64,000 nucleotides of DNA from Bifidobacterium asteroides DSM 20089. Its GTDB lineage: Bacteria > Actinomycetota > Actinomycetes > Actinomycetales > Bifidobacteriaceae. Where the stretch lies: assembly GCF_002715865.1 (NCBI RefSeq), contig NZ_CP017696.1, positions 1,612,001-1,676,000 on the forward strand. Reading direction: 5' to 3'. Under the pieces are notes generated by a model. The model did not search any database, was not told the DNA's origin, and saw only the letters and a list, made by a program, of their open reading frames with translations. The position numbers were made by a program, and so were the translations under genes. How positions within the stretch are numbered: position 1 is the stretch's first letter; each line of letters begins with the position of its first letter. Positions 7,274 to 64,000 of the stretch are shown piece after piece.

Positions 7274-9105
7274 GCCTTCTCCTCCCCGCCCAGATCCAGG
7301 GTGACCAGGGTCTGGCCCGGATCCACCCCTTGTGCCACGGACACATCGATGGTCTTCACACGGCCCTTGGCCGGGGCATAGACGTAGTTCTCCATCTTCA
7401 TGGACTCCAGAACCACCAGCAGGTCGCCCTTGTCCACCTCCTGGTCGGGGGCCACGTTGATGCGGGTGACCACCGCCTGCATGGTGGCTACGATGATGCC
7501 GGACCGGGCCGCATCCTGCCGGGGGGCGCCAGGCTCCTGATCGCGCAGCCCGCGCCCGCGCAGAGGCTGCCGGGGCCGGGAAATGCCGCCATGGCCGCCG
7601 ACGCCGCCCATGCCTCCCAGCAGTGACTGGGGCAGGGCCAACCTGACCCGCTTGTCGTCGATCTCCACGTTGTAGGTCTCCATGGGATCGCTGTCCCGGT
7701 CCTGTTCCTGGGCGGAGGCGCCGGAGACCGAGGCGGGCTGGCCACTGCCGTTGGAGGCAGGCTCCACGTTCAGGTAGACCCGTTCAAGCCACTTGGTGGA
7801 CACGTCGAAGGAGTGCCCGTCCTCGGCGGTGAACTCGGGGTTGGTGAAGATCTTCTGGAAGAGGCCGGCCGGTGTGGGGACCCCGCTGATGCTCATCTCG
7901 CGCAGGGCCCGACGAACCCTGGCCACGGCCGCCGGACGGTCCTGGGCGGTCACGATCAGCTTGCCCATCATGGAGTCGTCCCTGGGCGAGACCGTGTCAC
8001 CCACCTCGACGCCCGAGTCCACGCGGATGCCGGGGCCGGAGGGCCACTGAATCGACTCGATGGTCCCTGAGCTGGGGGTCAGGTTGGTGGCCGGGTCCTC
8101 GCTGGTGATGCGCAACTCGAAGCTGTGGCCTCGGGGCGGAGGCGCCACATTCAGGGAGCCGCCGTCGGCGATCCGTAGCTGCTCGCGGACAAGGTCCAGT
8201 CCGCAGACCTGCTCGCTGACCGTATGCTCCACCTGCAGCCGGGGGTTGACCTCCATGAAGTAGACGTCGTCCCTGGGGGTGACCAGAAACTCGCAGGTGC
8301 CCAGGCCCACATAGCCCACCGTGTCGAACAGACGGCGGGAGAACCCCTCAAGCTGGGCGACCACATCGTCGGACAGGAAGGGGGCCGGGGCCTCTTCCAC
8401 CAGCTTCTGGTTGCGGCGCTGGACCGAGCAGTCCCTGGTGGAGTAGACGGTGAACTGGCCGTGGCTGTCCCTGCCGGACTGGGTCTCCACGTGCCGGGCC
8501 CGATCCACGAACTTCTCGATGAAGTAGTCGCCCAGGTCGCCTCCCTGAAGGGCATCATGGTTCATGTAGAAGGTGCGCAGCTCGTCGCTGTCGTTGATCA
8601 GGGTTATCCCCCGGCCGCCGCCGCCGTCAGCCTTCTTCATCATGACCGGATAGCCGTGCTCGTCGGCGAAGTCGAGCAGGGGGCGCATGTCGGTGACGGG
8701 CTCGCTCAGTCCGGGCACCACGGGCACCCGGGCCCGCTCGGCCACCTTGCAGGCTGTGATCTTGTCGCCCAGCTCGTCCAGGACCTCCGGATCCGGCCCC
8801 ACCCAGGTGATGCCCGCCTCAATCACCTTCCGAGCGAAGGAGGAGAACTCAGACAGGAAGCCATAGCCCGGGTGAAGGGCGTCAGCGCCTGACCTGCGGG
8901 CGATGGAAACGATCAGATCCTCGTTCAGATAGGTCTCAATGTTGGTGTCCCCAGGCAAGAGGTAGGCCTCGTCCGCCATCTGGGCATAGGGGGCATCCCG
9001 ATCCTGGTCGGCATAGACGGCCACCGTGGCAATGCCCATCTCCTGGGCGGTGCGTACAACCCGCAGGGCTATCTCGCCGCGGTTGGCGATCAGCAGTTTT
9101 TTCAT
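7270..9105 (-). CDS. accA: Acyl-CoA carboxylase alpha subunit: biotin carboxylase fused to BCCP
   Basis: A 611-residue fusion. The N-terminal 450 residues are an ATP-grasp biotin carboxylase (MKKLLIANRGEIA start, HPGYGFLSE, the glycine-rich ATP loop KKADGGGGRGI, and EVNPRLQVEHTVSE). A Gly- and Arg-rich linker near residues 490-535 leads to a C-terminal biotinyl domain with the attachment lysine in ESMKM near residue 567. It carboxylates biotin with ATP and bicarbonate and hands it to the carboxyltransferase encoded immediately downstream (4-nt overlap). The ATG at 9105 has a GAGAGGGGA ribosome site. In actinobacteria this layout is called AccA/BccA. The birA gene 65 nt upstream encodes the enzyme needed to biotinylate it. 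Confidence 0.95.
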   Translation of the reverse strand: MKKLLIANRGEIALRVVRTAQEMGIATVAVYADQDRDAPYAQMADEAYLLPGDTNIETYLNEDLIVSIARRSGADALHPGYGFLSEFSSFARKVIEAGITWVGPDPEVLDELGDKITACKVAERARVPVVPGLSEPVTDMRPLLDFADEHGYPVMMKKADGGGGRGITLINDSDELRTFYMNHDALQGGDLGDYFIEKFVDRARHVETQSGRDSHGQFTVYSTRDCSVQRRNQKLVEEAPAPFLSDDVVAQLEGFSRRLFDTVGYVGLGTCEFLVTPRDDVYFMEVNPRLQVEHTVSEQVCGLDLVREQLRIADGGSLNVAPPPRGHSFELRITSEDPATNLTPSSGTIESIQWPSGPGIRVDSGVEVGDTVSPRDDSMMGKLIVTAQDRPAAVARVRRALREMSISGVPTPAGLFQKIFTNPEFTAEDGHSFDVSTKWLERVYLNVEPASNGSGQPASVSGASAQEQDRDSDPMETYNVEIDDKRVRLALPQSLLGGMGGVGGHGGISRPRQPLRGRGLRDQEPGAPRQDAARSGIIVATMQAVVTRINVAPDQEVDKGDLLVVLESMKMENYVYAPAKGRVKTIDVSVAQGVDPGQTLVTLDLGGEEKA

Positions 9106-49405: not shown

Positions 49406-51064
<1,659 letters not shown>

Positions 51065-51110
51065 GATCACTCCTTATTTCTGTTCTTGTTCAAGTCTGTC
51101 GGTTCTCCGC

Positions 51111-51938
51111 TCATCCTGCCACGGCCATCCGCCGCTTCAGGTGCTTGAGCTGGGTGGCCACCGTGCCATCGGTGGAGACCGAGCCGTACTGGACCTTCAT
51201 GCCGCCTATAACCGAGGGGTCAACCACCGAGTTGATGTGGACCGGCTTGCCCAGCTTGCGCCCGTAGACCTCCTGCAGGCGGCTGATCTGCTCGTCCTTC
51301 ATGGAGACCGCCGTGGTGACGGTGACCATGACCTGGTCCATGTGTTCCGAGAAACGATCCACCAGCCAAACGATGGTGTCAGGGAAGCGACGTCCACGCA
51401 GATCGATGGTGGCATTCAGGGCCATCTGCTCGGTGACCGGATGCATATGCTGCCCAGCCAGGAGAGCCCTGAGCAGGTCGGCTCGAGCCCTGGAATCGCT
51501 GTATTCGTCCGAGAGCCGGAAGAGCACCAGAGGCATCCCGAGCAGGGCCGAGTGAATCTCAGCCAGCTCGCCGGCTACCTGGTTGGTGATGCCCAAAGCA
51601 TCGGCGTAATAGGCGGTGGCATCCACGGACATATCCTCGGCCGCATTGGCGATGTGCACTACACGGCTCCACTGATGATTGGTCAGGTCATGGAGGATGT
51701 CTACGGTCAGCGGATCGGCTTTGTCGGCCAGGATGGTGTCGATCACCCGCCACTTGTCCTCAGCCGGACGGGAAGGGTCGGTCAGCGCACGCTCCAGGGG
51801 CCTGTTGGCATCGAGCAGGGTCACGAAGGTATAGAGCTCCATGGCCACGCGGAGGGCATCCTTCCCCTTGCTCTTGAGCAAAGGGGCATACTTGGCCCTG
51901 GTCTCCTTGTCGGAGCTCAGCGAAGTCTCTCCTCGCAT
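51111..51938 (-). CDS. atpH: F1F0 ATP synthase delta subunit
   Basis: A 275-residue delta (OSCP-like) stator subunit, long as in other actinobacteria. The C-terminal half has the conserved V-T-V-TTAVSM and G-K-P-V-H-I-N-S-VVDPSVIGGMKVQYG segments. ATG 51938 follows GGGGAGGTGAC. It joins the peripheral stalk to the alpha-beta head. Confidence 0.97.
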   Translation of the reverse strand: MRGETSLSSDKETRAKYAPLLKSKGKDALRVAMELYTFVTLLDANRPLERALTDPSRPAEDKWRVIDTILADKADPLTVDILHDLTNHQWSRVVHIANAAEDMSVDATAYYADALGITNQVAGELAEIHSALLGMPLVLFRLSDEYSDSRARADLLRALLAGQHMHPVTEQMALNATIDLRGRRFPDTIVWLVDRFSEHMDQVMVTVTTAVSMKDEQISRLQEVYGRKLGKPVHINSVVDPSVIGGMKVQYGSVSTDGTVATQLKHLKRRMAVAG

Positions 51939-51986
51939 GTCACCTCCCCTTTCGCGGAATCAACGTACCCATCGTCCGCCAATCAG

Positions 51987-52532
51987 TCATCGTGCCTGCC
52001 GCTTGTCCGAGGACTGCCCGCCCTGGTCCGCAATGATCGAGTCGATCATGGAGGACTGCACGGCATCATCCTGAAGCTGCGAGCCCAGGATTTTGCCGGC
52101 AAGAGCCGTAGCCAGCGTGCCCACCTCGCCCTTGAGCGAGACCAGCGCCTGCTGCTGCTGGGACTTGAGGGATCTCTGGGCGTTCTCGGTGATCTGGTTG
52201 GCCTCGGTCTCGGCACGGGTCCTGGCATCCGCCACGATCCTGGAGGCCTCAGCGCGGGCGTCATCCCGGATCTGGGAAGCCTCAACACGAGCCTTGCTCA
52301 GCTGATCCTGATACTGCTTGCGGGCCTGATCCGCATCTTCACGAGCCTTGGCGGCCTTCTGGATGTTGCCCTCGATCTTGGACGAGCGCTCATCGAAGAT
52401 GGCCTGGAACTTGGGCATGAAGAACTTGTAGAAGAAGACGGCCAGAATGACCAGGATGACCAGCGACCAGAAGATGTCGTAAATCGGAGGAATAAACAGC
52501 TTGATCCCTTTGCCTGCCGCTAGAGCGTACAT
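51987..52532 (-). CDS. atpF: F1F0 ATP synthase b subunit
   Basis: A 181-residue peripheral-stalk subunit: a single transmembrane helix near residues 18-40 (WSLVILVILAVFFYKFF) and then a long charged coiled coil rich in A, R, Q, E. Located between atpE and atpH, as expected. Confidence 0.97.
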   Translation of the reverse strand: MYALAAGKGIKLFIPPIYDIFWSLVILVILAVFFYKFFMPKFQAIFDERSSKIEGNIQKAAKAREDADQARKQYQDQLSKARVEASQIRDDARAEASRIVADARTRAETEANQITENAQRSLKSQQQQALVSLKGEVGTLATALAGKILGSQLQDDAVQSSMIDSIIADQGGQSSDKRQAR

Positions 52533-52582
52533 TGGCTCCTCCTTTCCTTTATCGAAGCCGGATCATGCAGGAATCGCACGGC

Positions 52583-52810
<228 letters not shown>

Positions 52811-52941
52811 TTATTTTCCTTTCCTCCACCGTTGCCGGTTCTTGGATTGTGGTTCGGCCCCGACCCCCGTCTACCGGTCGGAACCGACGAATATATGGGC
52901 TGCGACCGCCTGAAGCGCCGGCCGCGGCTTGTTCTTTTCGC

Positions 52942-53757
52942 TCAACCTTCTTCAGGGTAACTCATGGAGATGTAAACCGTGGTCAGGATGGCGAAGATAT
53001 AGGCCTGAAGGGCCGCCACGAAGATTTCAAAGGCCGTCAGGGCGAAGCCCAGAACGAACCAGCCCACGCCAGCCAGGGCCAAGAGCTTGTTGCTGGCCTC
53101 GATGATGTAGAACTGGGTGAAGGCCAGACTGACCGCCACCAGCAGATGGCCGGCGATCATGTTGGCAAAGAGTCGGATGGTCAGAGAGGCCGGCTTGACG
53201 ATGACCATCTCCAGCAACTGGATGGGCGTCAGAATAATATAGAGAGGCCATGGCACACCCGCTGGGAAGAGCTCCGACTTGAAGTAGCCCCAGACGCCCT
53301 GCTCCCGGAATCCCGTTACCATGTACTGGCAGAAAGTCCAGATGGCGAAGACCAGAGGCATGGTGATAGTGGCCGTGGCCGCTATGTTCATGCCTGGCAC
53401 GATGCCACAGAGATTGAAGACCAGGATGGTCAAGAAAATTGTCGTGATCATGGGCACGTAGCGCTTGCCCCGAATTTCGCCCAGGGTGTCATAGACGACC
53501 GAGTCACGGATGAACTCAATGACCCACTCGATGGCCCCCTGCCAGCGGGAGGGAATCAGCTTGGCCCTTGCCGCCGTGATTCCCAGCACCAAAAGGATAA
53601 TGACCATGGCCACGAACCTGATCAGGATGATCCGGTTCATGGCAAAGGGCGTTCCCTGGAAAAGAATCTCAGGAGGCAGGAAATCTTCGATGGTGGGCAG
53701 CTCGCTCGGCTTGGCCATGGCCAGACTGAAAGCTTCACTTCCCATTGCCTCTAGCAT
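52942..53757 (-). CDS. atpB: F1F0 ATP synthase a subunit
   Basis: A 271-residue membrane stator subunit with five to six helices and the essential arginine in SLTIRLFANMIAGHLL near residue 190. It provides the proton half-channels. ATG 53757 has a perfect AGGAGG 6 nt upstream. First gene of atpBEFHAGDC; no atpI is seen upstream. A TATAGT box near 53786-53791 (minus strand) may be its promoter. Confidence 0.98.
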   Translation of the reverse strand: MLEAMGSEAFSLAMAKPSELPTIEDFLPPEILFQGTPFAMNRIILIRFVAMVIILLVLGITAARAKLIPSRWQGAIEWVIEFIRDSVVYDTLGEIRGKRYVPMITTIFLTILVFNLCGIVPGMNIAATATITMPLVFAIWTFCQYMVTGFREQGVWGYFKSELFPAGVPWPLYIILTPIQLLEMVIVKPASLTIRLFANMIAGHLLVAVSLAFTQFYIIEASNKLLALAGVGWFVLGFALTAFEIFVAALQAYIFAILTTVYISMSYPEEG

Positions 53758-53785
53758 CTATCGCCTCCTGAACGACACAGTGAAC

Positions 53786-53791
53786 ACTATA
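53786..53791 (-). promoter_or_regulatory. Candidate -10 box of the atp operon
   Basis: TATAGT on the minus strand about 30 nt before the atpB start, preceded by a GC-rich stretch without a clear -35 box. Confidence 0.35.
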
Positions 53792-53948
53792 GCGCGCACG
53801 CGACTCATGGCTGCACCGTATGGGTAGTGTAGCCCACACCAAGAGCCACGGTAACCATGGATTCATCCAGTGTGTCACAGATAGTGGCCACACGTCGAAT
53901 CCGCCCCGCGGTGTGGACAGGTTGATAACGGATTTAATCCAAACGTCA

Positions 53949-54995
53949 TTAACTATTAACAACGCCGGGAATAAGCCCGTACCCGTCACCAGACAAGGGA
54001 CGATATCCGTCGGCGCGTGGACATCCAGGAGCGTGTCTGATGGATCGGTCGGTGCCTAGTTGACCCGCCGCCCGTAGAGTCGGCACCTGGTCCAGATCAT
54101 AAGGGGTGGTCTCGTATACCCAGTTCAGCCAGTTGCGCCAGAGCAGGTTGGCGTGGGCCCGCCAGGAGAAGACCGGCTCCAATGTCGGATCGTCGTGAGG
54201 GTAGTAGTTGACCGGGAAAGGCACCTGACCCAGGCCCTTGGCCATGTCACGCTGGTACTCGTGGGCCAGTGTGCCACGGTCGTACTCCCAGTGGCCCAGC
54301 ACGAAGATCTCCGAGAAATCCTGGGTGCAGATAAGCCCTGAACCCGACTGGGGACCCCAGGTCAGTACCTGCAGATCAGGACAGGCCCGCACCTGGTCCT
54401 CGTCCACCCCGGCCCAGCGGGAGTGGGGCTGCAGGGCTATCTCGTCGAAGCCATTGGTGATGAAGCAGTACTCGTCCTGCAGATACTGAGGAAAGACCCC
54501 GAAGACCTTGCGATCCAGGTCGCGCTTGGCGATGCCGTGGCGGTAGTAGAGCCCGGCCATGGCCCCCCAGCACAGATACATAGTGGAGAAAACATGGGTA
54601 GAGGCCCAGTCCAGAATGCGGGTCAGTTCCTCCCAGTAATCGACCTGCTCGAAGTCCATCTGCTCCACTGGGGCACCCGTCACGACAAGACCGTCATAAC
54701 AGTTGTCCTTGAAGGAATCCAGATTCTCGTAGAACTTGACCAAGTGATCCATGCTGGTGTGCACGGCCTGATGAGTGGAGGTCTTCATGAAGTCGATCTC
54801 CACCTGAAGCGGTGACTTGGAGATCAGCCGCAACAGCTGGGTCTCGGTCTCCACCTTGGTAGGCATCAGATTGAGGATGACCAGCCTGAGCGGACGCATC
54901 TCCTGGCGCTCCGCCTCGTGGCTTTCCAGGGCGAAGATGCGCTCCGAATCCAGGATGGATCTGGCCGGCAATCCAGTGGGGATGGTGATAGGCAT
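53949..54995 (-). CDS. metA: Homoserine O-acyltransferase (MetA), predicted acetyl-CoA dependent
   Basis: A 348-residue MetA-family enzyme acylating homoserine at the start of methionine synthesis, drawing on the product of hom in this window. The catalytic cysteine is in YLCWGAMAGLYY, with the histidine/glutamate pair in LGHWEYDRGTLAHEY. At the position that in characterised MetA proteins sets donor choice this one reads TGAPVE (glutamate, as in acetyl-CoA users) rather than TGAPLG. ATG 54995 (MPITIPTGLPA) is the conserved family start; the frame is open further up but not conserved. It is annotated in many genomes as a succinyltransferase, which I think is wrong here. Confidence 0.93.
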   Translation of the reverse strand: MPITIPTGLPARSILDSERIFALESHEAERQEMRPLRLVILNLMPTKVETETQLLRLISKSPLQVEIDFMKTSTHQAVHTSMDHLVKFYENLDSFKDNCYDGLVVTGAPVEQMDFEQVDYWEELTRILDWASTHVFSTMYLCWGAMAGLYYRHGIAKRDLDRKVFGVFPQYLQDEYCFITNGFDEIALQPHSRWAGVDEDQVRACPDLQVLTWGPQSGSGLICTQDFSEIFVLGHWEYDRGTLAHEYQRDMAKGLGQVPFPVNYYPHDDPTLEPVFSWRAHANLLWRNWLNWVYETTPYDLDQVPTLRAAGQLGTDRSIRHAPGCPRADGYRPLSGDGYGLIPGVVNS

Positions 54996-55090
54996 GATTC
55001 CATTATGGCCCAGCGTAGGCCTTCCCACACACGGGCTTGACAAGTGCGCTGGAATCCGTAACATAGGTAACTGCTGTGTTAAATAGCCGA

Positions 55091-55167
55091 CGCGGGGTGG
55101 AGCAGTTCGGTAGCTCGCTGGGCTCATAACCCAGAGGTCTCAGGTTCAAATCCTGACCCCGCTACCA
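55091..55167 (+). tRNA. Initiator tRNA-fMet (CAT)
   Basis: A 77-nt cloverleaf with encoded CCA. Initiator marks are present: unpaired C1-T72 and three G-C pairs at the bottom of the anticodon stem (CTGGG/CCCAG) around CTCATAA. It ends 193 nt before the restriction gene and lies at the edge of the AT-rich island. Confidence 0.97.
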
Positions 55168-55169
55168 GT

Positions 55170-55206
55170 AAGGCTCGGAATCGTTTGGATTCCGAGCCTT
55201 TGTTTG
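55170..55206 (+). terminator. Terminator after tRNA-fMet
   Basis: A 12-bp stem AGGCTCGGAATC/GATTCCGAGCCT with a T-rich tail right after the tRNA. Confidence 0.88.
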
Positions 55207-55225
55207 TCTTACACTCGATGAAGCT

Positions 55226-55238
55226 TTCTTAGTAAGAA
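55226..55238. promoter_or_regulatory. 13-bp palindrome upstream of the restriction gene
   Basis: TTCTTAGTAAGAA, six-base arms about a central G, lies about 125 nt before the restriction endonuclease start. It could be an operator or part of the previous terminator; it differs in sequence from the methyltransferase-side palindrome. Confidence 0.35.
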
Positions 55239-55275
55239 TCTGTTATCAATAATACAAAACCTCGTTTTCAATACT

Positions 55276-55281
55276 TATACT
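55276..55281 (+). promoter_or_regulatory. Candidate -10 box of the restriction gene
   Basis: TATACT about 80 nt upstream of the start codon; the -35 side is AT-rich but has no clear hexamer. Confidence 0.3.
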
Positions 55282-55360
55282 TATTTGTGTAATTGAGGTC
55301 ATTTCAGAACAGCTTCCCATGCCGTTCGATTGACGAGTTGAAAAAGTCATAGGAGACACT

Positions 55361-56620
55361 ATGAAATTGCTGAACCAGCCTCTTGACGGGGCACTGGGAG
55401 ATAAATTAAAATCACTGCTTCGATCTGGAGAATTTAGTAAATTAAATATTGTTGTAGCTTTCGCAAAAAACAGCGGCGTACAGAGGTTGATCAATGACTT
55501 TGATGATTTTATCAAGAGCGGTGGAGAGATCAATGTATATGTAGGGGTTGATTTCGATGGTACAACTTACGAAGCATTATCAGCATTACTGCCGCGAACA
55601 ACTTCACTTTTTATTATTCACGCAGAAAATGAACAAACATTCCACAGCAAAATATATAACTTCACCGGTGAGGATAAAAACCTCTTGATAGTTGGCTCCA
55701 ACAACTTTACCCGTGGAGGCCTGTGGACGAATATGGAAAGCTCCCTGATCGTTTCGTCGGATAAGAAAGATGATACGACGGTACAAGACGAGTTTATCTC
55801 CTACATTCAAAGCCTCAGATCATTAAACAAATCTAAATCTTGCATGCAAATCAATAGTCAAAATGATATCGACCTACTACTTAGAAACGGCTATATAAAA
55901 ACAGAAATCGAGACTTTAATTAAGAACAAAAGCAAGAAATATGGGGGCTCAAGAAACGTCCATCCATTATTCGGCAATGGCGTCCGTGCAAAGCTTCCGA
56001 GCTTGATAAAAGGGCCAGATTCCAATTCCTCAATATCGCCATTTCCTGACTCTCGGCTCGAGAGTAAAACTGACGCGTTCACCTCTACTGGAGCAGACGA
56101 TGAGACAGATGAGACAATTTGGCTTGAAACACGTAAGATGACAGGCGGGTCAAGAAACATTCTTGATTTGTCAGCAAAATCTTTACTTTACTCCGGCAAT
56201 CCGGAAGGTACCGTTTATGACATTGGAACAGAAAACTATATTAGTGGGGCAGTGCGATTCTTCGGAATTGATCCGATCAATACGAAAATTAGCAAAGACA
56301 TAATTATTAATTATAATGGAATCGACTATTATGGGAACACTATTTTATTTCCAAAAGGCAAAAAAGCAAATGGTACTTGGCGTTTACAGCTTAAAGGAAG
56401 GGATGCCTCAGGAAACAAAATCACCGGACAATTAAAACTCAATGGGAACCCTTCCCTGCCACATAAAATAATTACCTTCACAAGAGTTAGAGATGATTGC
56501 TATTCAATGTCGATCTTCCCGGATTCCAAACTTAGTCGTTTCGAAAAAGTTTCTTGGCTTCTAGCTTTTAATGGTTCAACTAATAAGGCCAGACGGTTAG
56601 GGATTATCAAAAACGACTGA
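55361..56620 (+). CDS. Predicted restriction endonuclease, phospholipase D fold (BfiI/NgoFVII-like)
   Basis: A 419-residue protein. The N-terminal half has the single-copy PLD-nuclease motif, HSK at residues 95-97 followed by GSNNFTRGG at 112-120, which in BfiI and NgoFVII forms a metal-independent active site at a dimer interface. The C-terminal half (from about residue 250, ETRKMTGGSRNILDLS) resembles the B3-like DNA-recognition domain of these enzymes. ATG 55361 has AGGAG 5 nt upstream. It converges with two DNA adenine methyltransferase genes and overlaps the end of the nearer by 14 nt. The region is visibly AT-rich compared with flanks, consistent with recent transfer. Recognition sequence is unknown. 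Confidence 0.88.
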   Translation: MKLLNQPLDGALGDKLKSLLRSGEFSKLNIVVAFAKNSGVQRLINDFDDFIKSGGEINVYVGVDFDGTTYEALSALLPRTTSLFIIHAENEQTFHSKIYNFTGEDKNLLIVGSNNFTRGGLWTNMESSLIVSSDKKDDTTVQDEFISYIQSLRSLNKSKSCMQINSQNDIDLLLRNGYIKTEIETLIKNKSKKYGGSRNVHPLFGNGVRAKLPSLIKGPDSNSSISPFPDSRLESKTDAFTSTGADDETDETIWLETRKMTGGSRNILDLSAKSLLYSGNPEGTVYDIGTENYISGAVRFFGIDPINTKISKDIIINYNGIDYYGNTILFPKGKKANGTWRLQLKGRDASGNKITGQLKLNGNPSLPHKIITFTRVRDDCYSMSIFPDSKLSRFEKVSWLLAFNGSTNKARRLGIIKND

Positions 56621-57443
56621 TCCATTCCTGATGTTTGCCAACTCTGGAACCACTTATACCGCCTTTAGGACCTCCAAAATGGAGTTGTATCGCATTATCG
56701 CTCAAAGGAACCTTTTCCGACACAAAAATAGGTGCCTTTGTTTTCAAACGTAAGCAGTCCACGAATTGGCGAACATCAAATCCGAATGCGTATCCTGTAG
56801 CGCCAGAGTAAGGGGGATCGATATATATAACTGCGCTAGATGAAATTTCATGATCAAGTAGCTGCCATATATCGGTCGCCATACAACGAACTCCATACAT
56901 ATTCTGCATTAAGTTACAAATTCTACTCCGAAGTTCCACAGGAGATGGCTGCATGGGATTTGCTGGGCTGCGTCGAACACTCGTCGCGGTTGGTTCCCAA
57001 TAGTTACGGAAAAATGCATTTTCCCATTTTCCTGCATTTCTCCATATTTGTTTACCGCCGAAAGAGCTCGCTTGCAAAATAGGATATATTTCAGCCTCAT
57101 GCTCATTCACTGGCGCAATACTTAATTGCTTCATATGGTCTTTAACCAGTCGTTTGTCCTTAGGCAAAGATGCTAGCAACGAATCAAAATAATCTATATC
57201 AAAATGACCCGCGCCTATTGCATTCCAAAACCGGCCCCAAGAACTGCAATCAAGCATCACAATATGACTGGGCGGCACTCCACGGTTAATAAGTTCTACA
57301 GAAATAGCGCCAGAGCCACAGCATAGGTCATAAAAGGTAACATCTTTATCATCAGACGCCAGCAATAACCTATCTACAATCTGCTTAGCAACTCTTTGTT
57401 TCCCCCCCTGATAGGCGCATGGGACGCGCAAACCAGCGGTCAA
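56607..57443 (-). CDS. D12-class (Dam-like) adenine-specific DNA methyltransferase
   Basis: A 278-residue N6-adenine methyltransferase with the alpha-class order: SAM-binding AYQGGKQRVA near residue 10 and YDLCCGSGAISVEL near residue 40, then catalytic DPPYSGATGY near residue 208. Its start overlaps the stop of the upstream EcoRI-type methyltransferase gene by 4 nt, and its end overlaps the converging restriction gene by 14 nt. Two methyltransferases with one PLD endonuclease fit a type IIS system with an asymmetric site, each enzyme modifying one strand. Confidence 0.88.
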   Translation of the reverse strand: MTAGLRVPCAYQGGKQRVAKQIVDRLLLASDDKDVTFYDLCCGSGAISVELINRGVPPSHIVMLDCSSWGRFWNAIGAGHFDIDYFDSLLASLPKDKRLVKDHMKQLSIAPVNEHEAEIYPILQASSFGGKQIWRNAGKWENAFFRNYWEPTATSVRRSPANPMQPSPVELRSRICNLMQNMYGVRCMATDIWQLLDHEISSSAVIYIDPPYSGATGYAFGFDVRQFVDCLRLKTKAPIFVSEKVPLSDNAIQLHFGGPKGGISGSRVGKHQEWISRF

Positions 57444-58699
57444 GAATCCCTCCTGCGAATGATCACACGAGCGTATACACGTTTATTATTAATAATACCA
57501 ACTCCACCACGATCATTTGGATGGCGAGTATACCCTACCCGTGTCAGTGTAGCGTCATCAACGCTTGTACGCGCATTTCCATTCGCTAACATGACAATCT
57601 CGAACTGTTCAGGGCAATACTTATCTAGAAATGTAATCGGCACCCCCATATATCCAAAGTAGTCAGCTGGTATATTCGTGGTTTTATTTACTTCGATTGC
57701 GTTATAGTTCGCATATTGCGGATAAAATGACGGATCATAATTGCGAGTAAGGCATAGGGCTTTATGACGACGGCCGTTGTCAATATTAGTAAACCACCTC
57801 ACGCCTTTTACACGAATAAACTTTCTCCCATTTAACTCAACACCACAGTTAGCTGCTTTAAGCGGGTAATCATCAGGAACATAGAATTTGCGATCACCTG
57901 AGTGAATGGTATCGCCATACCAAACTTTATCGTCTCGAAATAGTGGAAATACTTCTTTATAGGTTGATGCGTTAATGTTACCTAAAATTATATACTTTTT
58001 ATGATATTTTTGTAACAATTTTATAAATTCACGGAATAAGCTGAAGGGGGGATTGGTGACCACTACATCTGCCTTTTTCAACAATGAAACACACTCCGAG
58101 GAACGAAAATCCCCATCACCATCTAGACGCTGCAGCTTATTACCTTGAATAGCAAGCAATGATTCCAGATCCAAGGAACCATCCGGACGTTCTAGAAAGA
58201 CCTCCGGAACTTCATTTACTTCTGCCTCGTATGCGCCTGCGCCGTCTTCAAGAGGATATTCACTACCCGCTAAAGTGGAATTCGAATAGCACGTGGATGA
58301 TAACTTCTCCAGCCCCAGGTCGTTAAAATGCTTGACGAAATATCGAAAAAAGGCTGATTCAAAAGGATCATCACAATTGCACAGTACGTGTTTTCCTTGG
58401 AAAATATCTTTGTAGCATTTCATTTCTTTAGCTACATCTGTATATTCCGTATAAAACTCGTCCCTTTTCGCAGCATATGCATGATTTAACGTCACATTTT
58501 TAGCGATTACTTTTGCTTTCTCGTTTGCCTTAATAGGTTCAGCTTTCATTTTAAAAGGTATCCCGTTTTCCCGAATTACCGCCCTGAGGAAAGCGTTAAC
58601 AGCCGCAGACATGCTGATTCCAATTTGGTCAAAAATATCACTGGCTGCTTTTTTTACTCTCGGATCAATCCTGATCGTTGTTGTAGGCCCAGTTCCCAT
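57440..58699 (-). CDS. RelB/DinJ-like ribbon-helix-helix domain fused to EcoRI-type adenine methyltransferase
   Basis: A 419-residue two-part protein. Residues about 6-50 (TTTIRIDPRVKKAASDIF, ISMSAAVNAFLRAVIRE, then GIPF) match the RelB/DinJ antitoxin ribbon-helix-helix family. From residue about 75 it follows EcoRI methylase: KRDEFYTEYTDVAKEMKCY, VLCNCDDP, catalytic NPPF near residue 215, and KFYVPDDYPL. The start ATG 58699 is chosen over the open upstream frame because GGAGAA lies 7 nt before it. A perfect 17-bp palindrome lies 33-49 nt upstream. I infer that the N-terminal domain binds this site and represses its own promoter, a role played by HTH extensions in some other methyltransferases. 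Not demonstrated. Confidence 0.88.
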   Translation of the reverse strand: MGTGPTTTIRIDPRVKKAASDIFDQIGISMSAAVNAFLRAVIRENGIPFKMKAEPIKANEKAKVIAKNVTLNHAYAAKRDEFYTEYTDVAKEMKCYKDIFQGKHVLCNCDDPFESAFFRYFVKHFNDLGLEKLSSTCYSNSTLAGSEYPLEDGAGAYEAEVNEVPEVFLERPDGSLDLESLLAIQGNKLQRLDGDGDFRSSECVSLLKKADVVVTNPPFSLFREFIKLLQKYHKKYIILGNINASTYKEVFPLFRDDKVWYGDTIHSGDRKFYVPDDYPLKAANCGVELNGRKFIRVKGVRWFTNIDNGRRHKALCLTRNYDPSFYPQYANYNAIEVNKTTNIPADYFGYMGVPITFLDKYCPEQFEIVMLANGNARTSVDDATLTRVGYTRHPNDRGGVGIINNKRVYARVIIRRRDS

Positions 58700-58731
58700 T
58701 TGTACTTCTCCATAGCTAATTAAGTTACAGC

Positions 58732-58748
58732 GTGCTACATTGTAGCAC
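58732..58748. promoter_or_regulatory. 17-bp palindromic operator candidate of the methyltransferase operon
   Basis: GTGCTACATTGTAGCAC: two 8-bp arms around one T, perfect symmetry. It sits 33-49 nt upstream of the methyltransferase start, between TTCAAT and an AT-rich TGTAACTTAATT stretch that could be -35 and -10 elements. Ribbon-helix-helix repressors bind palindromes of this size. Confidence 0.6.
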
Positions 58749-59202
58749 ATTGAATATTATTTTCCATTTTCCTTAATTTCGATAAAGTAGAAGTTTATGC
58801 ATTCTACTATTTAGCTATATTTCTTTACCATTTCTCTGAATATAAGGGCTACTGCGCCTCATTATTAGAACTACAGCAATGCTGGAGTCTACTGATAAGT
58901 AATCGATTCCATTTGAAAGAAAATCTTAAAGTGAACACAAGACTCTCAGACGCTGGGACAGTCCATACGAATCACATAGCTCGCTTCATTGCCATTTTTA
59001 ATCTGAAATTTTAGGATCAGCAGAATTATTCATTCTTATGAGTAGGTCCGTCTAGCAAACTTGCACGTAAGGTACGTTCTTAAAACAAAGAAGTCCATAT
59101 AGGTTATTAATGCAAACTATCTATTCAACTTGTTTCATCAACCCAATTCCTCATGAAGGGCTTAACCTCGGGACCATTAACAATTTAAACAACTAATCGT
59201 CT

Positions 59203-59220
59203 GATCATTGATCAATGATC
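59203..59220. repeat. 18-bp perfect palindrome with three GATC sites
   Basis: GATCATTGATCAATGATC is its own reverse complement and contains GATC at both ends and in the centre. Function unknown. Confidence 0.7.
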
Positions 59221-59297
59221 TTTACTACAGTCTATACATTCGAAACTCGAAGTAATGACATTTTCGGCACTCGAAACAGTCACTCTAGTTACATACA

Positions 59298-59498
59298 TTT
59301 GAAATCTTCTGCTTCCACGCCATTTTATACTGAGCCGCTTTGTAAAGACCTGCATACATAATCAAGACTCTGACTTTTGTCCGGATGCCGATATCATTCA
59401 GGCACTACACCTTGCACATCAAGAATTTTCTCAAATTTTATCTGATTAAACCTGTTAAAGGTCAGCACATCCAAATTACACGCATATTTGAAATCTTC
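59298..59498 (+). repeat. Pair of 12-nt direct repeats
   Basis: TTTGAAATCTTC occurs at 59298-59309 and 59487-59498, within otherwise featureless AT-rich sequence. Could be incidental. Confidence 0.4.
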
Positions 59499-59552
59499 AA
59501 TTTCCCACAATTCGTGAATCAAACTTCCACCAACTCGAACTTGCTAGCATGA

Positions 59553-60596
<1,044 letters not shown>

Positions 60597-60810
60597 CACC
60601 ACCAACCACCACCTCCACCCACGCGTCAGGACTTTCTGCAGCAGACACTCCGAGGCCGACTTCCCCAGTCGTACGGAGATCAGAAGCACTGCAGAACTGA
60701 CATCAGTAGGCCAAGCACGGGACGGATGCCCCGCTGAGGGATCGTCCACCTCAACCGTTGGATGCTTTCAGTGAGGTACCAACAGCTCAATCATTTGCTT
60801 ACTTGAGGGT

Positions 60811-60960
60811 TCACTTTGTGTGGTACTCGTCGTAGGCCTCCTGCTTCAACCTGATGTTCTGGTTTAGATAGGCTTTCTTGGGGGGGGGGGGGGGGGTATC
60901 CAGGTACTGATCCCAGTCGGAGCTCGCCTCCTGCCAGTTGTTCGACAGCCGCACTCCTTC
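60811..60960 (-). pseudogene. C-terminal remnant of a carbohydrate ABC substrate-binding protein
   Basis: On the minus strand a short open stretch encodes LSNNWQEASSDWDQYLDT, five prolines, KKAYLNQNIRLKQEAYDEY and a stop, which looks like the C-terminal helices of a sugar-binding lipoprotein. Upstream the frame soon meets stop codons and the rest of the gene is absent. The prolines come from an uninterrupted 17-nt C tract (60880-60896) that keeps the frame. Assignment rests on pattern similarity only. Confidence 0.5.
60880..60896. repeat. 17-nt homopolymeric G tract
   Basis: Seventeen consecutive G on the plus strand inside the binding-protein remnant. Such tracts are prone to slippage during replication and to sequencing error, so its length may be variable or inexact. 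Confidence 0.85.
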
Positions 60961-61317
60961 TCGGCCTACACAGGCCTGGCCTTCTTGGGCATCCTCTATG
61001 TCAGAGGGTGCTTAGCCACAAAACGACTGCAGGCATCACCATCGCCCACAAGGACCAGCAACGATGAGCAGAGCATATTCACCATGCTCTGACAAAGGCG
61101 CCGACGCCTGCGAAAGTGCTGATTCCACCGGAACCGGAATGAGCCGCAATCTCCGCCCAATGCATCCTTGTGCAGTGGTCATGAAATGCACCTTCTCCAT
61201 TGAGTGGGATATGCAGACGTTGAAAGGAATGACCTCGTCCACACTGGAAACCGGACCAGACAGCCTGCGGCCCTAATTCCTAGCGACCACTCCGACACTG
61301 GCCATGGTAAGAGAAAG

Positions 61318-61330
61318 TTTGTTAAACAAA
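61318..61330. promoter_or_regulatory. Palindrome downstream of lacI
   Basis: TTTGTTAAACAAA has six-base arms about a central A. It lies 90 nt past the regulator stop and upstream of the binding-protein remnant on the minus strand. Possible LacI-family operator or weak terminator. Confidence 0.35.
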
Positions 61331-61419
61331 AAAGTTGCTAAAAGTTAGAGGGCGAAAGCTTCGCTTGTGTCAGTGAGATCTGGATTGTACGACCTTCGGA
61401 AATCTGCTGACGAACGGCC

Positions 61420-62424
61420 TTACAAGGGCATTCTGGTAGAGGCGCGCTGGACCAGTGTGCCCTTGACGCATTCGATACCTTGGTGACCTCGGCCGTCCAG
61501 CATATCAGCCAGGCAGCTGGCCGCCCTGGTGCCAATGGCCTTCAGATTCAGATCGACGCTGGTCAGCGGAGGACGCGAGTTGCCGACAATGGCCGTCCGA
61601 TTGTCAACCCCGACCACCGATACCCTATCCGGCACGGAAACATGCCGGTCATGCAGAATATCCAGGCACCCCCGGGCTATCTCGTCGTTGCCGCAAGCCA
61701 CCCCGTCGAAGTCGACTCCCTCATCCAGCAGGCTAATCATGGTGCGGCGTCCGGTCTCTTCGTTCCAGCCCCCATACCGAACGGTACGCACGGCAGCCAA
61801 ACCACGGCTATCCAGTTCGGCCATCTCGCCCTTAAGTCGCCTGATCGAGGACTGGAAGGCTGGATCGCCGGCGATCAGCACGATTTTTTTGGATCCTCCC
61901 TCGACCAGATGCCGGACCATAAGCCGCCCGATATCTTCGTTGTCGGTGACGACCGAGCAGTCATGGGGATTCAAGGACGCCTGGTTGGCATAGACAACCG
62001 GCACCGGGCAACTGGTTAGCGTAGGCCGTGGATCGGTGCGCCACCCGACCATCAGCAGACCTTTGACGCCATAGGCCAGCAGATTATCTATATGGTGCTG
62101 TTCAAGAGCCGGGTCTCTGCCGGCGTTGCAGAGAAAAACAGGAATGGACTCGACCCCGAAGTAGCTTTCCGCGCCGATCAGAATAGGCATGGAGAACTGA
62201 CCGTCCAGGTCTGAAGTGACCAGGCCCACCGACTTGGGCAGGCTGGGAGGCTGGGACTGTTTCTGACGCTCATTGAGCGAAAAGGAGAGCTCCGCCGCGG
62301 CCTTGAACACCTTGGCCCTTGTCGGGCCGCTGACCTGTGCGCTGTTGCGCAGCGCCTTGGAGGCTGTGGACACCGCAACCCCCGCCTTGGCAGCCACGTC
62401 GGCCAGCGTCACTTTCTTGCTCAT
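61420..62424 (-). CDS. LacI-family transcriptional regulator
   Basis: A 334-residue repressor: N-terminal helix-turn-helix TLADVAAKAGVAVSTASKALRN and hinge, then a periplasmic-binding-protein-like ligand domain (VGLVTSDLDGQFSMPILIGAESYFG, GVDNRTAIVGNSRPPLTSVDLNLKAIG). It presumably responds to a sugar or glycan fragment and controls the divergent GH115 gene, 192 nt away. A candidate operator with GAAAATTTTC lies between them at 62525-62540. Confidence 0.93.
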   Translation of the reverse strand: MSKKVTLADVAAKAGVAVSTASKALRNSAQVSGPTRAKVFKAAAELSFSLNERQKQSQPPSLPKSVGLVTSDLDGQFSMPILIGAESYFGVESIPVFLCNAGRDPALEQHHIDNLLAYGVKGLLMVGWRTDPRPTLTSCPVPVVYANQASLNPHDCSVVTDNEDIGRLMVRHLVEGGSKKIVLIAGDPAFQSSIRRLKGEMAELDSRGLAAVRTVRYGGWNEETGRRTMISLLDEGVDFDGVACGNDEIARGCLDILHDRHVSVPDRVSVVGVDNRTAIVGNSRPPLTSVDLNLKAIGTRAASCLADMLDGRGHQGIECVKGTLVQRASTRMPL

Positions 62425-62524
62425 CGAATCGCCTCCCGGATCTGCTGGACTGCGAGCATCTCCAACTATGGTAATTGAAAGAGACGGCTATCGAGTCCTT
62501 CCAGTCCGATCTATTTTTCTACCA

Positions 62525-62540
62525 TTGAAAATTTTCCTAA
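62525..62540. promoter_or_regulatory. Candidate LacI-type operator
   Basis: TTGAAAATTTTCCTAA contains the perfect 10-bp palindrome GAAAATTTTC and resembles LacI-family boxes. It lies between the divergent regulator and GH115 genes, about 80 nt before the GH115 start. Confidence 0.45.
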
Positions 62541-62616
62541 TCTGGTGCTAGCCTTTGGGTGTCCGAACACAGGCGGCAAAGCATCCGCCTGGTAAACAGA
62601 CAATTGGAGCGCCACT

Positions 62617-64000
62617 ATGGTCACCCTGTTTCATCCCCAGCCCGGAAACATCCCAGTGACCGCCGGATCGGGAGCAGTCCTGGCCGACTCAGGGGTCCGA
62701 CCAAATTGGCTGCTGGAGCATGGTGAGGATTCGGCCGTGCAGATTGCGACCGGCAACCTGATGCGGGATTTTGCGGCCGTGACAGGCCGTACCCAGAGGC
62801 GGGCTAATCTGATCGATGAGGGCAGCCCGACCATTTGCTTGGGTACTCTAGGCCATTCCAGCTGGATCAATTCAGCCGTCCGCAACGACCAGCTCGATCT
62901 TACCCCGCTCGAAGACCCCCAAGGGGAGTATCGCTGGGAAGGCTTCACCTTGCAGGTCGTCGACGGCACACTTTATGTTGTCGGAACCGACCGGCGCGGA
63001 ACCATCTACGGAATCTACGCCCTTAGCCGGGCCATTGGCATCTCACCCCTGCACTGGTGGGGAAACGTGCCAGTCCGTCACCATGAACGGATATGCCTGC
63101 CCGGCGACCTGCGCGTCTTCGACTGGCCCTCTGTCAAATACCGGGGCTTCTTCATCAACGACGAGGAGGAGCTGGACGACTGGGCCCGCCTGCACACCCC
63201 GGATGGAACCATCGGACCAACGACCTACGAAAAGGTCTTTGACCTGATCCTACGGCTGGGCGGCAACTATCTGTGGCCGGCCATGCACGTCAACGCCTTC
63301 AATGCCGACCCGCGCAACGGCAGGCTTGCCCAGAGCATGGGGGTCGTCATCGGGAGCAGTCACTGCGACATGCTTCTACGGAGCAACCAGCATGAGTGGG
63401 ACCCCTGGGTGGCCTCGCAGGGCGGACATGTGGACTATGACTATTCGCTGCCTGGACGCAACCGGGACATGATTCGGCGCTACTGGTCGCAGAGCGTGGA
63501 CATGAACCGGAACTACGAGGTCACCTGGACCCTGGGCATGCGCGGCATTCACGACACAGGCCTGACCACGCGCGCCATCGACGAGGATCCGAACCTGGAC
63601 CGGAAGGACCGCCTGCAAGCGCGGGTCGATCTGCTCGGTCGGGTCATTCACGACCAGAGAAGCATCCTGCGTCAGCACCTGGGCCGACCTCCACAGGAGG
63701 TCCCCCAGCTCTTCATTCCCTATAAGGAGGTGCTGCCCCTCTACGACGCGGGCCTGGACCTGCCAGAAGACGTGACCATCATGTGGGTCAACGACAACTA
63801 CGGGTATATGCGCCGCTTCCCCAATCAGGCCGAACGGGCACGCAGCGGAGGCAATGGGGTCTACTACCATAGCTCCTACTGGGCGCCGCCGAGGACCAGC
63901 TACCGCTGCACTTCATCCACCCCCCTGACTCTGATGAACGACCAGCTGGGTAAGTGCTGGAATCGGGGCATCCGCCGGGTGTGGGTGGATAATCTGGGGG
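62617..64000 (+). CDS. Glycoside hydrolase family 115 alpha-glucuronidase (3' end beyond window)
   Basis: The first about 461 residues of a GH115-type enzyme, which releases (4-O-methyl-)glucuronic acid from glucuronoxylan or arabinogalactan. Family features: YRGFFINDEEELDDWAR near residue 171, YEKVFDLILRLGGNYLWPAMHVNAFNADPRN near 206, WTLGMRGIHDTG near 305, and MWVNDNYGYMRRFPNQAERARSGGNGVYYHSSYW near 388. No signal peptide is seen, so it may be cytoplasmic and act on imported oligosaccharides. ATG 62617 has GGAG 8 nt upstream. Divergent from a LacI regulator. Confidence 0.92.
   Translation, partial: MVTLFHPQPGNIPVTAGSGAVLADSGVRPNWLLEHGEDSAVQIATGNLMRDFAAVTGRTQRRANLIDEGSPTICLGTLGHSSWINSAVRNDQLDLTPLEDPQGEYRWEGFTLQVVDGTLYVVGTDRRGTIYGIYALSRAIGISPLHWWGNVPVRHHERICLPGDLRVFDWPSVKYRGFFINDEEELDDWARLHTPDGTIGPTTYEKVFDLILRLGGNYLWPAMHVNAFNADPRNGRLAQSMGVVIGSSHCDMLLRSNQHEWDPWVASQGGHVDYDYSLPGRNRDMIRRYWSQSVDMNRNYEVTWTLGMRGIHDTGLTTRAIDEDPNLDRKDRLQARVDLLGRVIHDQRSILRQHLGRPPQEVPQLFIPYKEVLPLYDAGLDLPEDVTIMWVNDNYGYMRRFPNQAERARSGGNGVYYHSSYWAPPRTSYRCTSSTPLTLMNDQLGKCWNRGIRRVWVDNLG

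Follow-up and report, generated by a model that had tools for sequence, protein, structure and literature searches.

Restriction-modification and toxin-antitoxin systems are often compared, both being addictive and both combining a damaging with a protective part. Among the former, Ecl18kI, SsoII and EcoRII have cytosine-5 methyltransferases. In the accessible parts of two sources, these enzymes are described as carrying an N-terminal DNA-binding domain fused to the methyltransferase, with an operator in their own promoter and no separate controller gene (PMC12707154, PMC3874152), and a self-repressing circuit is described for methyltransferases with an N-terminal helix-turn-helix (HTH) (PMC3874152, PMC12707154). 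Here, we analyzed a 64,000-nucleotide stretch of the genome of Bifidobacterium asteroides DSM 20089 (hereafter, the window; the genome is a single contig of 2.19 Mb). It contains a gene, named M1, that encodes an EcoRI-type adenine methyltransferase whose N-terminus is a ribbon-helix-helix (RHH) domain of the RelB/DinJ antitoxin type, and it has a palindrome in front of this gene. M1 probably acts as an RHH dimer on its own promoter, repressing an operon of two methyltransferase genes. The features concerned, with their positions in the window, are:

57440 to 58699, minus strand: M1, gene of an RHH-fused EcoRI-type adenine methyltransferase of 419 aa (open reading frame (ORF), PF13651 and RelB/DinJ profiles, start from 17 relatives).
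58499 to 58684, minus strand: RelB/DinJ ribbon-helix-helix domain, M1 residues 6-67 (TIGR02384, PDB DinJ matches, model, sequences).
57452 to 58489, minus strand: EcoRI-type methyltransferase domain, M1 residues 71-416 (PF13651, E 3.5e-130).
58732 to 58748, no strand: perfect 17-bp palindrome, putative operator with the conserved core TACANTGTA (pattern search; core present in 17 of 18 loci and in none of 110 controls).
58739 to 58766, minus strand: promoter-like site TGGAAA-16-TACAAT, with TG before the second hexamer, which lies inside the palindrome (consensus match only, 0.8 expected by chance).
56607 to 57443, minus strand: M2, D12/Dam-like methyltransferase gene, 278 aa, TTG start (ORF; PF02086, E 8.9e-7; relative adjacent in 17 other loci).
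55361 to 56620, plus strand: R, convergent BfiI-like restriction endonuclease gene with PLD and C-terminal domains (PF09565, E 1.2e-7; PDB 2c1l; fold match).

Two antitoxin profiles matched the N-terminus of M1 with scores over their cut-offs: TIGR02384 RelB_DinJ on residues 6-67 (hmmscan, E 4e-16, 59.0 bits against a cut-off of 45.65) and PF04221 RelB on residues 9-73 (E 1.9e-9, 37.7 bits against 22.4). A profile built from 15 fused proteins retrieved three PDB DinJ chains (9lew, 4q2u and 4ml0; E 2e-8 to 1e-7). Arg10 of M1 was aligned onto Arg10 of E. coli DinJ in a pairwise alignment and is shared by the 18 fused proteins; for the DinJ of L. paracasei, the accessible part of the source reports that the equivalent exchange, R13A, abolishes DNA binding (PMC9592637). 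The monomer model of M1 begins with an extended stretch, followed by helices at 13-26 and 30-43; it assigns no strand. The remainder of the protein, residues 71-416, was covered by PF13651 EcoRI_methylase over profile positions 2-344 of 345. A sequence-only reading of this DNA had proposed this pairing, with a RelB/DinJ RHH domain at about residues 6-50 followed by EcoRI methylase, and the profile matches, the DinJ chains and the two helices of the model bear it out. The start of M1 is the ATG at 58699, a start codon being present at the equivalent position in 17 of 17 relatives (ATG in 16, GTG in L089). A longer ORF of 436 aa from 58750, which would place the palindrome within the coding region, was rejected given where these relatives start.

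The palindrome, GTGCTACATTGTAGCAC, is exact, with 8-bp arms around a 1-bp centre, and 32 bp separate it from the M1 start codon. It was the sole match at up to three mismatches in the window (0.12 expected by chance) and the sole exact copy in the whole genome, where three other places carry 3 mismatches; in the genome, the backwards pattern used as a control gave 6 matches per strand against 4 for the real pattern. Within it is a TACAAT with TG in front, and the only promoter-like match found in 58690-58900 (58766-58739, minus strand) overlaps it; the sequence-only reading had likewise placed the palindrome where the promoter should be.

At least 17 other loci encode a fused protein 58-66% identical to M1; they come from several phyla of bacteria, from a Psychrobacter plasmid and from viral contigs. 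The fused set comprises 18 loci (the window, L063, L079-L091 and L159-L161) and is a lower bound. Homologues had been expected to share an upstream palindrome, and this held for its core: the exact sequence TACANTGTA was found in 17 of the 18 loci, at -25 to -65 from the start, within the 150 bp upstream that were searched. It was found in none of 110 relatives without an RHH domain, for which about 220 bp upstream of the tblastn match start, not of the true start, were used (two of 112 were dropped, having less than 200 bp upstream; for one control, L110, an RHH gene lies at a distance of 3.5 kb). When the fused regions were shuffled by dinucleotides, the core appeared in a mean of 0.05 loci and in one at most. 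The conserved unit in the relatives is the core with outer GTGC...CAC rather than the whole palindrome, which is perfect in only three of the 17 core-bearing loci (window, L063 and L089). GTGC on the left was kept in 15-16 of these 17, and four of the six right-hand bases in 12-15. Mean pairwise identity across the 17 loci was 0.80 in the 19-bp site versus 0.27 in the 30 bp further upstream; of these 19 columns, 8 are invariant by construction, the loci having been selected for the core, and the remaining 11 alone gave 0.65. A second, exact copy of the site lies upstream of the first in L080, L085 and L161. In 13 carrier genomes, the longer string GTGCTACANTGTA had 13 matches at 12 places in 10 genomes, all at the M1 promoter by their coordinates, and the three genomes without a match have variant sites (L083, L086 and L088); the backwards control matched 3 times.

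The site type is also met at antitoxin genes. Among 34 stand-alone RelB/DinJ loci, from which L240, L243 and L250 (near-duplicates) and L233, L238, L245 and L261 (contig edges or otherwise unused) were omitted, about 100 bp upstream contained the exact core in 4 and the core with at most one mismatch in 12; shuffles gave means of 0.14 exact and 2.84 one-mismatch, with maxima of 1 and 8. The hexad of E. coli RelB is [A/T]TGT[A/C]A according to the accessible part of the source (PMC2812701), and each half of the core fits its first five positions. It therefore looks as if the domain of M1 has retained a kind of site to which its family binds.

Two further observations on the site were set aside. 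In L083 (ATSVRID) and L086 (ITAVRID), a different beta-strand goes with the outer bases ATACA, the others having TTTIRID or TTTVRID with CTACA; this co-variation of strand and operator is suggestive, with two cases only, L271 (TTTIRID) has GTACA, and we did not use it as evidence. The perfect 17-mer was also rejected as a signature of RelB/DinJ genes: 12 viral stretches carry GTGCTACANTGTAGCAC, none of them before an ORF recognized as RelB/DinJ. In L071, a 60-aa ORF about 22 bp behind GTGCTACANTGTAGCAC had a weak CopG-type RHH match below the cut-off (E 0.022), and in L067, L068, L072, L073, L075 and L077 the string lies before what we take to be a dusA-like gene and/or beside a presumably integrase-like gene. 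These viral sites are possibly attachment or promoter sites.

The fusion was found in diverse settings. Searching plasmids with tblastn, we found on Psychrobacter plasmid pA3H10 a full-length fused protein, 64% identical, with the identical 17-bp palindrome ahead of the M1 start codon and the same gene order as in the window. The automatic annotation names this protein RelB/DinJ antitoxin, an example of how such methyltransferases can be misfiled. The scan of genome contigs gave at least 13 full-length fused proteins (L079-L091, 58-66% identity), under the record names Ferrovibrio, Alloalcanivorax, Rhizobiales bacterium, E. coli SCPM-O-B-8794, Avisuccinivibrio, Brenneria, a Chloroflexi bin, a Succinivibrionaceae bin, a mussel symbiont, Kocuria, Pseudidiomarina, a Spirochaetaceae bin and Serratia; the Chloroflexi-bin protein groups among gammaproteobacterial ones in the tree, and its label may be a binning error. 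Three further fused proteins came from viral contigs (L159-L161). Among 396 genomes of the window's phylum, the window gave the only full-length match at E 1e-100 or better, the other match starting at 60 of 415, and 394 genomes of the order of G194 contained three carriers, all already in the set. The module of L082 had no megablast match in complete E. coli genomes.

In all 18 fused loci, a relative of M2 adjoins M1 and, beyond M2, a gene related to the PLD nuclease gene runs convergently. The nuclease is partial, divergent or interrupted in five of them: a contig end cuts it in L083, L085 and L160, the nuclease of L161 is divergent (25% identity) although its M1 and M2 are typical, and L087 has interruptions in the frames of both M2 and R. 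The M2 start overlaps the M1 stop by 4 bp in the window, an overlap found in 13 of the 18 loci; R and M2 overlap tail-to-tail by 14 bp in the window, and the 3' ends of the two genes overlap by 4-50 bp in 15 of 18 (the exceptions being L083, with a 4-bp gap, L161, with a 75-bp gap, and L087). In a tree of the methyltransferase part, computed from the 18 fused proteins and 27 of the 112 RHH-less relatives, the fused proteins stood on one side of a branch with an SH-aLRT of 99, which suggests that the fusion probably arose once and then travelled. The M2 gene, the BfiI-like nuclease gene and the wide conservation go beyond the sequence-only reading.

Self-repression by M1 is the best-supported reading, because the RHH domain is confirmed, the upstream site is conserved and no controller gene was found in the two loci whose gene content was inspected (a small HTH gene of the C-protein type was looked for in the module of the window and in the annotation of pA3H10). 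This agrees with the earlier proposal of a methyltransferase that represses itself and needs no separate controller protein. An RHH fold requires a dimer; the RelB/DinJ-type N-terminus of M1 would dimerize, set two beta-strands on TACANTGTA in the M1 promoter and block RNA polymerase. On entry to a new cell, where there is no M1 protein, M1 and a co-transcribed M2 would be expressed at full rate and the DNA would be protected, and accumulating M1 would then shut its own operon and hold the methyltransferase low. In support, unfused RHH genes upstream of EcoRI-type methyltransferase genes have a one-mismatch core (L013 and L029, described below).

The earlier proposal also held that this control times methylation against the endonuclease. 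Self-control of the methyltransferase stands as a prediction from sequence; direct control of R does not, the exact core being absent upstream of the nuclease gene in all 13 loci tested (13 of the 18 nuclease promoters), two of which had a one-mismatch copy. Any timing of restriction must therefore be indirect. Since the 3' ends of R and M2 overlap, early strong transcription of the methyltransferase genes might interfere with the convergent R until M1 represses itself, which is the weakest step of the circuit and a rather doubtful one.

Several observations weigh against M1 as its own repressor. Confidence in the full-length M1 model is low (pLDDT 65.7), residues 50-82 forming a low-confidence stretch, and a fold search of the PDB with this model gave no match at E 0.001 or better. 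The promoter call is a consensus match, of which 0.8 are expected by chance in shuffles, and the scan for the best promoter, which overlapped the site in 15 of 18 loci, is biased since the site resembles an extended -10 element. L088 lacks the exact core and has two overlapping one-mismatch copies, L083 and L086 have differing outer bases, and the core of L083 lies 64 bp from the start. Thirteen of the 18 fused proteins fall into one clade, the loci representing perhaps five or six lineages and not 18 independent cases, and the control loci are also partly non-independent. Finally, 22 of the 34 stand-alone RelB/DinJ loci had no core within one mismatch.

The likeness to an extended -10 element raises the alternative that the element is a promoter only (TGnTACAWT), the RHH domain merely dimerizing the enzyme or tethering it to DNA. 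TGCTACA(A/T)T is indeed present in most loci, the best consensus promoter overlaps the site as just described, and an M1-M1 dimer is a plausible side effect of an RHH domain. We nevertheless consider this unlikely: the right half, TGTA, for which a -10 element has no need, goes together with the left half in 17 of 18 loci, and the palindromic core persists in L083 and L086 even though the TG is lost there. Furthermore, the core is absent in the 110 RHH-less relatives and enriched at stand-alone RelB/DinJ genes, and the second copies in L080, L085 and L161 lie upstream of the first.

The element might also be the recognition site of the methyltransferases of the module, with a promoter controlled by its methylation state in an AhdI-like manner. 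Both strands of the site carry adenines, and control of methyltransferase genes by promoter methylation is described in the accessible part of a 2025 review (PMC12707154). This explanation is highly improbable, as it leaves the RHH domain unexplained, the outer GCTAC is not kept in L083 and L086, and two different adenine methyltransferases with a BfiI-like nuclease suggest an asymmetric site, whereas the core is palindromic.

We regard as extremely improbable that the RHH domain is a genuine antitoxin part that neutralizes, or is controlled by, a RelE-type toxin. The domain does belong to the RelB/DinJ profiles, and the genome of the window has two RelB genes, each followed by a RelE-like ORF (judged by eye), but the core is absent upstream of both. 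No toxin gene adjoins M1 in the window or in pA3H10, the neighbor being a D12 methyltransferase gene in 18 of 18 fused loci. The antitoxin profiles stop early on M1, TIGR02384 at 64 of 85 and PF04221 at 69 of 82. Between the RHH part and the enzyme there are about 20 variable residues, which would leave little space for a tail that binds a toxin; the short match is not decisive, however, because the profile match also ends at about 54-61 in some stand-alone RelB/DinJ proteins. The longer site of the type GTGCTACANTGTA was not found elsewhere in the window's genome or in the 13 carrier genomes. Together with the two RelB genes without core, the lack of an adjacent toxin gene and the short linker, this speaks against the cross-talk with toxin-antitoxin systems that the sequence-only reading had allowed for.

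That the palindrome works as a hairpin in the leader RNA of M1, through translation control or attenuation, is scarcely credible at all. The 17 nt of the window, L063 and L089 can fold into a 7-bp hairpin (-7.9 kcal/mol), but in 14 of the 17 core-bearing loci the arms have 1-3 mismatches (predicted energy -4.8 to -0.5 kcal/mol), so that the DNA core is kept and the stem is not.

M2 matched PF02086 (E 8.9e-7). R matched the profiles of SauUSI (7clg, E 3.4e-7), BfiI (2c1l, E 8.8e-7) and NgoAVII (4rct, E 0.0016), as well as PF09565 (E 1.2e-7). The best fold match of its model (pLDDT 69.7, pTM 0.45) was BfiI (2c1l, E 1.1e-13, 439 columns, TM-score 0.35 by query), and the model also matched the C-terminal recognition domain of BfiI (3zi5, E 3.7e-5, TM-score 0.23 by query); with both BfiI parts matched at low TM-scores, agreement is better for the single domains than for the way they are arranged. 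A pair of unlike adenine methyltransferases is suggestive of an asymmetric recognition site. The accessible part of the 2025 review gives two methyltransferases as one solution in Type IIS systems (PMC12707154), and the available text on pA3H10 reports that its two methyltransferases on separate plasmids gave no protection and that both were proposed to be needed (PMC10457243). The module is probably a mobile, Type IIS-like restriction-modification module. A related nuclease gene was also observed on an Enterococcus gallinarum plasmid (L287, 3501-8230): it encodes a 38% identical PLD nuclease and is convergent, with a 12-bp overlap, with a gene for a 766-aa hypothetical protein that itself adjoins an N-6 methylase gene, placing this nuclease family near other methyltransferase genes too.

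In the window, G+C is about 0.37-0.44 from the tRNA-Met gene (55091-55167) to about 59500 and about 0.56-0.64 in the flanks (compared within 50000-64000), which fits an acquired island. Its gene content is three genes, R on the plus strand and M2 and M1 on the minus strand. About 800 bp upstream of M1, inside this AT-rich island beside tRNA-Met (55091-59500), are without a clear gene.

RHH genes of the same type were also found unfused, as genes for proteins of 56-65 aa just upstream of unrelated methyltransferase genes. Among plasmid-borne stand-alone proteins, the one nearest to the domain (64.6%) is a 65-aa protein from Collinsella, whose gene abuts an N-6 methylase gene. In 65 genomes of the family of this Collinsella protein, we fetched nine loci that encode close relatives (L263-L271). 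The gene directly behind the RHH gene is an N6 or C5 methyltransferase gene in six of them (L263, L266-L269 and L271) but not in the other three. Such short toxin-less RelB/DinJ-type RHH genes abutting N6 or C5 methyltransferase genes were thus seen in Collinsella-type genomes in L222 (2884-6841) and in these six loci, the methyltransferase types being assigned by profile for L222, L268, L269 and L271 and by similar sequence for the rest. L271 has the exact core at -33, and the other eight fetched loci have no core within one mismatch.

In the family of the window, 21 of 189 genomes have an EcoRI-type methyltransferase. Neither M2 nor R was found within the flanks of the 29 other family loci (L009-L037), two of which (L013 and L029, with near-identical proteins) have a separate RHH gene upstream. 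It encodes a 62-aa RelB/DinJ protein (TIGR02384 56.8 bits in L013, over the cut-off), has a one-mismatch core at -36 and lies 107 bp upstream of the EcoRI-type methyltransferase gene, which is followed by an overlapping DUF262-like gene (by eye). In L110 (region 7400-8641), an exact core lies at -44 from such an RHH gene, which has no methyltransferase gene directly after it.

We tentatively propose, as a possibility, that toxin-less RelB/DinJ-type RHH proteins form a recurrent, unnamed class of restriction-modification controllers derived from toxin-antitoxin operons, either fused or stand-alone. Weighing against such a class, 11 of 12 loci (L263-L271, L013, L029 and L110; all but L271) have the RHH gene directly behind an IS1595-type transposase gene, and four of these 11 (L110, L264, L265 and L270) have no methyltransferase gene directly after it; the RHH gene could therefore belong to the transposon, and could regulate it instead of the methyltransferase. 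A purely methyltransferase-linked role of the stand-alone genes is likewise weakened by the transposase in front. IS1595-like elements seem to carry the RHH-methyltransferase pairs along as cargo, and one such pair may be the ancestor of the window's fused enzyme; the unfused pairs in the family of the window give a hint of how the two parts became joined. In L013 (42-2727), L029, L319 and L320 (two genomes), genes for an IS1595-type transposase, the 62-aa RHH protein, the EcoRI-type methyltransferase and a DUF262-like protein stand in a row. No IS1595-type transposase was found by tblastn in the 18 fused loci (for the window, 50001-64000), no methyltransferase gene was evident next to the RHH gene in 33 other RelB/DinJ loci (by eye, 22 also by motif; L272 and L316 are the same place), and nothing was confirmed in a viral scan with the L271 domain.

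Other small regulators were seen beside related enzymes. Loci from Anaerotignum and related Clostridia (L092 and others) were rejected as fusions, a separate small Arc/CopG-like ORF overlapping the methyltransferase gene; in L092, L093, L095, L096, L098, L101 and L102, this ORF of 50-83 aa overlaps or closely precedes an EcoRI-type methyltransferase gene, and the two that were tested had Pfam scores below the cut-off. Some other RHH-less relatives have small HTH genes (Cro/C1-type or MerR-like) ahead of the methyltransferase. A RelB/DinJ-type domain is in one frame with nucleotidyltransferase-like sequence in L253 and stands at the start of a longer protein of unassigned kind in L244, L249 and L250.

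An RHH or RelB/DinJ fusion to a methyltransferase was not found described in the open-licence full-text literature, a search that leaves most subscription papers and REBASE outside, and the words 'ribbon' and 'RelB' are absent from the accessible part of the 2025 review (PMC12707154); within this scope, the earlier view that the pairing is not a described class holds. The restriction-modification system of pA3H10 (PMC10457243) is a member of the same module. The available text of that paper describes two adenine methyltransferases, a nuclease on the opposite strand and an unsuccessful specificity test, contains no remark on an RHH domain or operator, and names RelB a single time, where the toxin-antitoxin systems on Psychrobacter plasmids are counted (PMC10457243).

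R resembles BfiI and NgoAVII in its PLD catalytic domain, with a fold match across BfiI and its C-terminal recognition domain; unlike BfiI, to which it is 15% identical in the fold match, it is partnered by EcoRI-type and D12-type adenine methyltransferases. The module would share autogenous control with Type II systems controlled by C-proteins, but has no separate HTH controller and no site upstream of the nuclease gene. M1 shares with Ecl18kI, SsoII and EcoRII the N-terminal DNA-binding domain, the lack of a controller gene and, as its conserved core suggests, the operator in its own promoter; the domain is an HTH in those enzymes and a RelB/DinJ RHH on an EcoRI-type adenine enzyme in M1, and the M and R promoters of Ecl18kI overlap, whereas R of the window is convergent and has no site. 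Methyltransferase-repressor fusions are thus already known, and the RelB/DinJ-type domain appears to be a new pairing. If the predicted binding is true, it adds a second DNA-binding fold to this class, explains how a widely transferred module settles in new hosts without a controller gene, and offers a compact system with an exchangeable domain and operator. With RelB/DinJ antitoxins, M1 shares an RHH domain with the conserved arginine and a palindromic site in its own promoter, a related core being present at part of them; it differs from them in having no neighboring toxin gene, apparently little or no room for a toxin-binding tail and an enzyme fused to it. The protective enzyme of one system thus appears to have taken a promoter-binding domain and a type of site from the protective protein of the other.

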